Origin: an uncultured Clostridia bacterium
GTDB taxonomy: Bacteria; Bacillota; Clostridia; Christensenellales; CAG-314
DNA length: 49,141 nt
Assembly (NCBI GenBank): GCA_947623225.1
Contig: CANQGO010000014.1
Span: forward strand, 1 to 49,141
Reading direction: 5' to 3'
The position numbers were made by a program, and so were the translations under genes. The notes under the pieces are model-generated. The model had not been told where the DNA came from. It made no database searches and saw only the letters and a list, made by a program, of their open reading frames with translations. This document shows positions 1-15,522 of this stretch, in pieces (the first letter of the stretch is position 1; each line of letters starts with the position of its first letter).

Positions 1-179
1 GCAGCAGGTATCTGCTCCTGAGTAAGAGCCGCTCCTTCTGTGACCTCTACCGTAGAGACGGTAGTCTCGCCGTTTTTGAAGGTGACGGTGACCGTTTTGT
101 CCTTGCACGCGACGGTGACGCCGAGCGTAAGAGCCAAGACCACCATGACCGCAAGTACGGCAATGAATGTCTTTTTCAT
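1..179 (-). CDS. Putative surface lipoprotein, 5' part only
   Basis: Only the first 59 codons are inside the window; the gene runs off the left edge. The product begins with MKK, a hydrophobic stretch to about residue 24 and a cysteine at residue 25 (T-V-A-C), a slightly atypical lipobox, so it is probably exported and lipid-anchored. After the cysteine comes a threonine/valine-rich stretch (VTVTFKNGE, then TVEVTEGAAL) that resembles InlB B-repeat or Big-like surface modules common in gut Clostridia. The ATG at 177-179 is preceded by an AAGGAGG Shine-Dalgarno at 188-194 with an 8-nt spacer, which decides the start. It is transcribed from its own promoter at 258-287, whose spacer holds a nine-G run, so its expression may vary. 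Function beyond surface lipoprotein is unknown. Confidence 0.75.
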   Translation of the reverse strand, partial: MKKTFIAVLAVMVVLALTLGVTVACKDKTVTVTFKNGETTVSTVEVTEGAALTQEQIPA

Positions 180-257
180 AAATTTTCCCTCCTTGATATT
201 TTTATTTTGCGATGAAGATACGTTCGAAGCCACTGCACCGCATAGAATATTGGATAA

Positions 258-287
258 ATGATACCCCCCCCCGTGCGGTTTTGTCAA
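258..287 (-). promoter_or_regulatory. Promoter with poly-G tract in spacer (possible phase-variable switch)
   Basis: On the minus strand there is a perfect TTGACA (282-287) and TATCAT (258-263) separated by 18 nt. Nine of these spacer bases are an uninterrupted G run (264-272 read as C on plus) directly abutting the -10 box. A/T-rich DNA at about 288-325 could act as an UP element. The predicted start of transcription is near 251, giving a leader of about 70 nt before the lipoprotein ATG at 179. Loss of one G would give the ideal 17-nt spacer. This is the geometry known from phase-variable promoters such as Neisseria porA and opc; variation here is inference. Confidence 0.7.
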
Positions 288-323: not shown

Positions 324-360
324 CAAAAAAAGCCTCCCTCATCAAGTCAACGAGGGAGGC
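324..360 (-). terminator. Intrinsic terminator of the hpf-floA operon
   Basis: A 9-bp perfect GC-rich stem (332-340 with 352-360, loop of 11 nt) is followed on the minus strand by seven U residues (324-330 region). It lies 15 nt past the stop of the last operon gene and separates that operon from the poly-G promoter. Confidence 0.9.
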
Positions 361-13002: not shown

Positions 13003-15522
13003 ATGAAACATTCGACTCTTGCAAAATATATTGCTGTCACAATGGCAATACTTGTGCTGGTCGCGTCGTTGGTACTTGCCGCTTGCAAGCCCGACACGCC
13101 CCAGAATCCAAATACTCCATCTACTCCGAGCACTCCGTCGACTCCCGACGAACCGGACACCCCAGACACACCGTCCACACCGGGCACCCCATCCAAAAAG
13201 GATATAACGGGCGTCACATTCCAATCAGTCACTGTCGAATATGACGGACAAGAACATGAGATAACCTTAAGCGGGACATGGCCCGACGATGTGAGCGTGA
13301 ATTATACCGGAAACAAGGGTACAGATGCCGGCGAGTACAATGCCACCGCCACCCTCAGCGGAGACGGGTACAATACTCTTACTCTGCGTGCCAAGTTGAC
13401 GATCACTAAAAAAGCATGGGATCATAGCGGCATCACATTCATTGACAAAACCGTCGAATATGACGCAAAGGAACACTCCATACAGATCGTAGGCAATCCT
13501 CCCAGTGGAATAACCGTCACATATCTGTATGATGGACAAGAGGCTACGGGCGTCACGGCTGTAGGCGTGCACGAGGTCACGGCGGTTCTGGGCGGCAAGA
13601 ATTTCGAAGAATACCGCCTTGTGGCAAAACTCACAATAAAAGCAACAGAGGAAATGTTGTATGCCGCATACTACAACGGCAAAATATATTTCCAGAACAA
13701 TCTGGACGGCAACAAACTCTACAGTGTCGGAACAAGCGGCAACGCGCTCAGCAAAGTCAGCAGCGATACGGCGCAATATCTGACCGTGATCAACAATGCC
13801 CTCTACTACTACAGCGGCAGCCTGTTTACGCAAACGATCAAATGTGTAAATTCTTCCGGTATCGGTAGCGTATACAGCCCGGGCAGAGCGACATATCTTA
13901 CCGGTGACGGACAATACATCTACTACGCCAAGACCAATCTCATCGACACCAAGAAAGAGAACGGAATATACAAATTGGAGGTGAAGGACGGCAATGCCCA
14001 AGCGGAAGCAGTCAGGATCTGCACGGATAAAGCAAGCGACCTGGCGTACTACAACGGATACATATACTATGTCAACAAGAGTGCCGACGACAAATTGTAC
14101 AGAGTTTCCGTCAACGGTACAGATGCAGTCGGGACGGTCGTTCTGGACAAAAAGGTCTCCGACCTGATCATCTCCGACGGGACTGCATACTTCACGCAGT
14201 ATGATACCACAGTGGGCAGTCTCTCCTATGCCGCTGCCATCTTCAAACTGAACTTGAACGGATCCGACGGCGCAGTCAAACTCACAGCCGACAAGGGCGC
14301 ATATCTTACCAAAATAGGCAACTATATTTACTATATCAACAAAGACGCTCTTACAAGTCACATATTCGGTAAAGGCATATACCGTGTGAATATCAATGAA
14401 AGCGGTAACCTCACAAGCGAAAAAGTACTCGAAGCGGATGAAGGCGACGGATATTACTCCCTCACCGGAGACGGAACAAATCTTTACTACTATCGTCTTG
14501 CCGACAAGCACTTATACAGACTCAATGCCAATCTGATAGGAACAAGTGAACCCACGGACCTGATGCGTTCTTTCACCGTTCCGGAAGATAAGCCGACAAT
14601 TACAGCGTACCCGTACAGTTTCGTCACAGAGCATGACGGAGAGATATACTATGCCAATCCTCTGGATCTCGGCACACTGTACAAGTACAATCCCACAACT
14701 AAGTTGAATGTCAAAGTATTGTCCGACAGTGTAAGCAGTGTCTACTTCAACGGCAACTATATGTACTATTGCACATATATATTGACCAATTACGCGTTGT
14801 GGAGAGTGGACCTGACCCAAACGGACCCCACGCCAGAGAAGATATCTCCTCACAGATATTCGTATCTCTACTTCGAAGGGGACTATTTATACGCAATGCG
14901 CATCACGTCTACTTACAATAATCGTATTGTAAAGATCGATCTGAACAACCTCGATGAAGAAGAAACAGAGATCTATCACGATAAGAATGTCCATGTGACT
15001 CAATTGTTTTACATAGACGGAATATTCTACTTCACCATCAATCCTACCGGGTCTGAACTTTTGAAGGGCAACAAACATATATACAGTTACGACCCCAAGC
15101 AAAATGACTTCGAAAAAGCTGTAGATACCAAACTTGTATCAGACAACTTCACTATATGCAACGGCAAATATTACTACTACAACGTGAAAGACAAGACTTT
15201 CAATGTGGCAAATCTTGACGGTACCGGCAGCAGTGAGATCAAGAACAAGGTGGAGATCACAGACATAATCGTTGCAGACGGAATTATATACTATACAAGC
15301 ACGTCTGCAGACAATACGGGAATATTTGCCTACAATACGCAGACTCAAACGACAGTCAATCTGACAAGCAAAGTAGGACACGGTCTGACAGTATACAATG
15401 GTAACTTGTACTTCATCAATCTCTCCATAACCTGGACAACAGACTACCCGCAAAATGGTACCGGTGACGGACATCTGTATCGCGTAAGCATAACGGGCGG
15501 TACAGCGGAAAAACTTGCTTGA
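13003..15522 (+). CDS. Large lipoprotein with MBG-like domains and beta-propeller-like repeats
   Basis: 839 residues. Signal peptide with lipobox L-A-A-C (cysteine 28), then a Pro/Thr/Ser spacer (about 30-65, repeated TPS and TPD units) that would hold the protein off the membrane. Two tandem MBG/Big-like domains of about 75 residues follow (68-137, 140-215; each has VEYD and ends KLTI). From about 218 to the end there are repeated units of the type YYNGKIYF, YYSG, YIYYVN, YLYAMR, resembling DUF5050-type beta-propeller repeats. GGAGG 5 nt before the ATG. It lies behind the membrane-bound XRE regulator, probably in one operon, and ends at a strong bidirectional terminator. Likely a cell-surface ligand or polysaccharide binding protein; no enzymatic motif was seen. 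Confidence 0.85.
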   Translation: MKHSTLAKYIAVTMAILVLVASLVLAACKPDTPQNPNTPSTPSTPSTPDEPDTPDTPSTPGTPSKKDITGVTFQSVTVEYDGQEHEITLSGTWPDDVSVNYTGNKGTDAGEYNATATLSGDGYNTLTLRAKLTITKKAWDHSGITFIDKTVEYDAKEHSIQIVGNPPSGITVTYLYDGQEATGVTAVGVHEVTAVLGGKNFEEYRLVAKLTIKATEEMLYAAYYNGKIYFQNNLDGNKLYSVGTSGNALSKVSSDTAQYLTVINNALYYYSGSLFTQTIKCVNSSGIGSVYSPGRATYLTGDGQYIYYAKTNLIDTKKENGIYKLEVKDGNAQAEAVRICTDKASDLAYYNGYIYYVNKSADDKLYRVSVNGTDAVGTVVLDKKVSDLIISDGTAYFTQYDTTVGSLSYAAAIFKLNLNGSDGAVKLTADKGAYLTKIGNYIYYINKDALTSHIFGKGIYRVNINESGNLTSEKVLEADEGDGYYSLTGDGTNLYYYRLADKHLYRLNANLIGTSEPTDLMRSFTVPEDKPTITAYPYSFVTEHDGEIYYANPLDLGTLYKYNPTTKLNVKVLSDSVSSVYFNGNYMYYCTYILTNYALWRVDLTQTDPTPEKISPHRYSYLYFEGDYLYAMRITSTYNNRIVKIDLNNLDEEETEIYHDKNVHVTQLFYIDGIFYFTINPTGSELLKGNKHIYSYDPKQNDFEKAVDTKLVSDNFTICNGKYYYYNVKDKTFNVANLDGTGSSEIKNKVEITDIIVADGIIYYTSTSADNTGIFAYNTQTQTTVNLTSKVGHGLTVYNGNLYFINLSITWTTDYPQNGTGDGHLYRVSITGGTAEKLA

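Follow-up and report, generated by a model that had tools for sequence, protein, structure and literature searches.

Poly-G tracts in promoter spacers as probable slippage switches of surface-protein genes in an uncultured Clostridia genus

Results and Discussion

The minus-strand promoter at 287-258 of a contig from an uncultured Clostridia bacterium has an unbroken run of nine G in the spacer between its -35 and -10 boxes, and, judged from its sequence and from that of its relatives, it is very probably a phase-variable, slippage-controlled promoter of the sigma-70 type. About 100 promoters of the same build occur in one clade, and the surface genes behind them are therefore probably switched by slips in the copying of the G run; slippage-based transcriptional phase variation appears to be the best explanation for what we observe in at least 17 species of one uncultured Clostridia genus. 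In gut Clostridia, invertible promoters are the main known route to phase variation. If the reading is true, species abundance or gene presence in a metagenome would be a poor guide to the surface proteins actually expressed, and the tract lengths in existing metagenomic reads would be a readable record of expression state.

Anatomy of the window promoter

The window, by which we mean the whole stretch of 49,141 nucleotides that was analyzed, is a complete contig (G000:C14). Its features at the promoter end are as follows.

1..173, minus strand: N-terminus of the lipoprotein gene (MKKTFIAVLAVMVVLALTLGVTVAC...), ATG at 173, with signal peptide and lipobox VTVAC
174..257, minus strand: 5' untranslated region of about 80 nt with an RBS of the AGGAGG / GGAGGG type, from the sequence
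258..263, minus strand: -10 hexamer TATCAT, 5/6 consensus, TATCAT in the G019 ortholog too
264..272, minus strand: G9 tract, the proposed slippage site, from the sequence; G9 also in G019 and G012
273..281, minus strand: non-repeat part of the spacer, AAACCGCAC, by direct sequence reading
282..287, minus strand: -35 hexamer TTGACA, perfect consensus
332..360, minus strand: intrinsic terminator of the upstream floA/hypothetical operon, with a 13-bp stem (7 GC pairs), a loop of 3 and a T tail

Read directly, positions 287-258 (minus strand) give TTGACA-AAACCGCAC-GGGGGGGGG-TATCAT with a spacer of 18 nt, of which the G9 run (272-264) adjoining the -10 box makes up half, exactly as the first-pass annotation of this DNA had described it. 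That annotation had also called this the only such C/G run in the window, and G9 is indeed the single G/C run of at least 8, with all others at most 6 and the runner-up being one run of 6. The terminator that it had placed just upstream was recovered as an intrinsic terminator by a scan (360-332, minus strand), and it insulates the promoter from the upstream floA/hypothetical operon. A promoter scan scored the 287-258 site 11/12, higher than any other promoter-like site within the initial 3 kb. The promoter thus has a homopolymer of at least 8 between its -35 and -10 boxes, as in the porA and tp0126 type, and its 18-nt spacing lies inside the range of 16-19 in which one unit would alter promoter quality. 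When the window was shuffled, two or more G8 matches were found in 14% of the shuffles; the G9 run by itself is not very improbable, and its position within a promoter is.

The downstream gene leaves the contig at base 1, with about 57 codons remaining. Its earlier description as a surface lipoprotein gene agrees with the signal peptide and lipobox VTVAC in the MKKTFIAVLAVMVVLALTLGVTVAC start, and this lipobox, together with the enrichment among sister genes reported below, marks the controlled product as surface-exposed or exported. The G019 ortholog occupies the same place, after floA, and both it and the G012 homolog carry Listeria-Bacteroides (InlB B-type) repeats (PF09479). The two homologs have the same promoter build with a G9 tract, and the non-repeat part of the spacer reads AAACGGCAT in G019 and AATCAACAC in G012 vs AAACCGCAC in the window. 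No length variant was seen at the window locus among these three genomes, all of which have G9. A second lipoprotein gene (DUF5050) lies at 13003-15522 on the plus strand of the window, without a poly-G promoter.

Recurrence of the promoter build

The first-pass annotation had suggested a genome-wide check for other poly-G spacers, and in the 1.48-Mb draft of the same genome we found seven G8+TATNNT sites, with BspA-type leucine-rich-repeat lipoproteins among the further targets. Five of the seven have a perfect TTGACA. Among the G runs of this genome, five begin 9 bases past TTGACA, one follows TTTACA and one is placed closer to the -35 box; the runs on C37 and C51, two of the five, belong to promoter copies that share one flank, with G9 in both. 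G8-10 tracts also occur in coding sequence of this genome, in genes for large surface proteins and in one that resembles a permease gene. At one of these (L263, G000:C4, ~18417), a 537-aa surface-type frame stops just past a G10 and is followed at once, in a different frame, by one of 333 aa, making this a candidate coding phase-variable gene. Both mutS (mutS1) and mutL are intact in this genome, so that slippage is not boosted there by mismatch-repair loss, and missing mismatch repair as a cause is ruled out for it.

Among the 61 related genomes, TTGACA-N9-G7+ matches 91 sites in 20 genomes, and G8+TATNNT matches 125 sites in 18 of the 25 congeners, each with a single match for the reversed-pattern control. 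The recurrence is far above control and hence not due to chance. A floA tree of 24 congeners, a single-gene tree rooted at its midpoint, shows the tracts concentrated within one of its two halves: of the 17 species there, 16 carry 2-14 sites with an abutting -10 box, against 0-2 in the seven remaining species. Poly-C at the equivalent promoter place is found a few times, hardly above control, and was set aside on these counts. Four congeners have TTGACA followed directly by C9 (G016:C41:14795, G015:C67:8205, G022:C42:61069 and G009:C27:29779), and these four have few or no poly-G promoters.

Outside the genus, a sample of the class had 5 positive genomes among 390 others and a sample of the phylum had none among 397, which rules out a universal feature of either. 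Across 84,980 species genomes, the pattern TTGACA-N9..12-G8-TATAAT matched at least 116 stretches, against an estimate of about 2 expected under uniform base composition. The matches listed come mostly from host-associated Clostridia and Bacilli and also from Saccharibacteria, Streptobacillus, Helicobacter, Streptococcus, Gemella and spirochaetes, and 84 of the 110 genes assessed among them encode a hydrophobic N-terminus. In several uncultured Bacilli (L110, L104, L100, L178) and in Streptobacillus notomytis (L089/L135), adjacent paralogous exported proteins each have their own poly-G promoter, and tract lengths differ in some of the adjacent pairs (e.g., G9 vs G10 in L100). We think it somewhat likelier than its contrary that poly-G spacers form a large transcription-based phasome, being the standard randomizer of surface-protein expression in the Clostridia clade (~2-14 promoters per genome) and, independently, in many other host-associated Bacilli, Clostridia, Saccharibacteria, spirochaetes and Streptobacillus.

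Genes downstream of poly-G promoters

Lipoproteins and exported proteins are enriched downstream of poly-G promoters. A lipobox is encoded by 34 of 82 downstream genes vs 3 of 42 window genes (P = 5 × 10-5), and a hydrophobic N-terminus by 58 of 82 vs 12 of 42 (P = 9 × 10-6). The downstream genes include a minority of another kind, with ABC-transporter ATPases, an accessory sugar operon and metabolic genes. Accessory aldolase promoters of four species keep a G8-9 tract at registers in the spacer that differ. Phase variation of core glycolysis is ruled out, since the aldolase gene behind the tract is an accessory paralog and the core aldolase promoters that were checked have no tract.

Tract length and spacing

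The 89 distinct sites from congeners and the family have G lengths of 8 (5 sites), 9 (47), 10 (30), 11 (3), 12 (2), 15 (1) and 18 (1), with a mode of 9, and the total spacer is 16-19 nt in 80 of the 84 sites with an abutting -10 box, the modal total being 18. In 667 kb of congener sequence, the G/C runs number 1409 at length 4, 211 at 5, 6 at 6, none at 7, 11 at 8, 57 at 9 and 30 at 10; the long runs in this set are partly ascertained, and the unbiased list from the own genome has the same gap at 7 (18 G runs of at least 7: none of 7, four of 8, eleven of 9 and three of 10). Tract lengths are therefore bimodal: runs of 6-7 are nearly absent, lengths peak at 9-10, and the longest reaches 18. 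Tract length is independent of the size of the remaining spacer and does not offset it (rho = -0.11, P = 0.30), being mostly 9-10 whether that remainder is 7, 8 or 9 nt; because of this independence, tract length looks as if it were set by a mutational equilibrium rather than tuned to spacing.

Ortholog groups retain the tract with total spacers of mostly 16-20 nt, for example 17, 18 and 19 in one exported protein family and 16 and 18 for a membrane protein. Near-identical promoters within one genome can differ in tract length (G9 vs G12 in G005; G9 vs G10 in G001), and others are alike, as in four copies in G006 and three in G014, all with G10. Length differences between related copies with conserved flanks thus occur among paralogs and orthologs, at loci other than that of the window; these comparisons use one assembly per species, in which the consensus may misstate homopolymer length. 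The longest promoter tract, G18 (L250), is in G019, a 97% complete genome in which no mutS1 and no mutL were found. This is consistent with longer tracts after mismatch-repair loss, and concerns one genome only.

We considered whether the G run could instead be a fixed regulatory element, selected for DNA shape, for promoter strength or for a dedicated protein, with no switching of length. The strong coding-strand bias towards G, as opposed to C, the placement of most tracts against the -10 box, the modal total of 18 and the presence of tracts before metabolic and ABC-transporter genes would all suit such an element. Against it, the remaining spacer is not conserved, the register of the tract shifts among orthologs, lengths run from 8 to 18 uncompensated, and a single genome can hold copies of unequal length. 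Coding sequence, where a promoter role is unexpected, also contains tracts of this size, one of them out of frame. We regard a fixed element as unlikely. The strand preference is not predicted by slippage alone; a G at -14 beside the -10 box, as in an extended -10, may aid promoter recognition and may explain why the run is G rather than C.

An artefact of sequencing or assembly, through two-colour poly-G or homopolymer error, is very improbable. G runs are difficult to read (PMC9187656), and some contigs do end at or inside tracts (G018:C15, G000:C32), but most tracts are internal with specific -35 and -10 boxes on both sides, they recur at orthologous positions across many genomes, with a concentration in a sub-clade, and the build is present in isolate genomes among the matches listed, such as those of Streptobacillus notomytis and Streptococcus henryi. 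That a G run and a promoter met by chance, a reading favoured by the fact that a single G9 is only slightly unexpected in 49 kb, has a negligible probability and is refuted by the reversed-pattern controls (91 vs 1 and 125 vs 1). The reading of the spacer as prone to slippage, first proposed from the window alone, is supported by the recurrence, the bimodal lengths and their lack of compensation, the orthologs and paralogs, the exported targets and the coding tracts, all of which are sequence evidence.

Proposed mechanism and known systems

Under slippage, the G9 tract would gain or lose one G during replication, and the 18 nt between the -35 and -10 boxes would become 17 or 19; the altered distance would in turn change RNA polymerase binding and hence transcription of the lipoprotein gene. 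Switching would be reversible and random from cell to cell, with a presumably high rate of slippage in the living population. By analogy with porA and tp0126, the effect on expression would depend on length, with 17 nt best, and the window promoter at 18 nt would then be one contraction away from the optimum and one expansion away from a poor 19. The likely benefit would be surface diversity in the host gut.

The mechanism is already known. In Neisseria meningitidis porA, as summarized in PMC7864442, a poly-G separates the -35 and -10 boxes and transcription is strongest at 17 nt, and Treponema pallidum tp0126, encoding an OmpW homolog, has a poly-G in a spacer with an optimum total of 17, measured with a reporter (PMC7864442, citing Giacani 2015). 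The window promoter shares with porA the poly-G in the spacer, the setting of the -35/-10 distance by its length and a surface protein as product. However, porA is the outer-membrane porin of a Betaproteobacterium at a single locus, whereas several loci per genome, mostly for lipoproteins and exported proteins, are found here, and for the window clade the effect on expression is a predicted one. The tp0126 promoter, likewise with poly-G between -35 and -10, is that of a spirochaete and has reporter-measured expression, in contrast to the effect predicted for the window promoter. The first-pass annotation had named porA and opc as parallels: porA stands, but Neisseria opc is not a clean one because its tract, a poly-C, overlaps the -35 box and does not lie in the spacer (PMC7864442), the common point being that the length of a promoter homopolymer controls transcription. 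Bifidobacterium breve is a gut commensal with G tracts of a similar kind, G10-12 in sortase-pilus genes, for which slippage was shown in mice (PMC9187656); those tracts are intragenic and work through the reading frame instead of promoter spacing, resembling in this the coding tracts found in the own genome. In Clostridia, transcriptional phase variation is described for Clostridioides difficile loci such as pdcB and pdcC, where it works by invertible promoters and recombinases and not by slippage, and the passages found in a 2025 review name invertible promoters for this species and contain no case of slippage in Clostridia (PMC11868660). The literature searched, with subscription journals mostly outside its range and therefore as weak evidence, gave no description of poly-G promoter spacers in Clostridia; the taxon and the scale look unreported there.

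Near-identical copies of poly-G promoters were also observed as sets within genomes (G006:C10/C30/C33/C38, G014:C24/C40/C49, G005:C1/C2/C17 and G000:C37/C51). Such copies are often at contig ends, and different lipoprotein genes share 5' ends; duplication or recombination of the promoter and leader among surface genes is possible.
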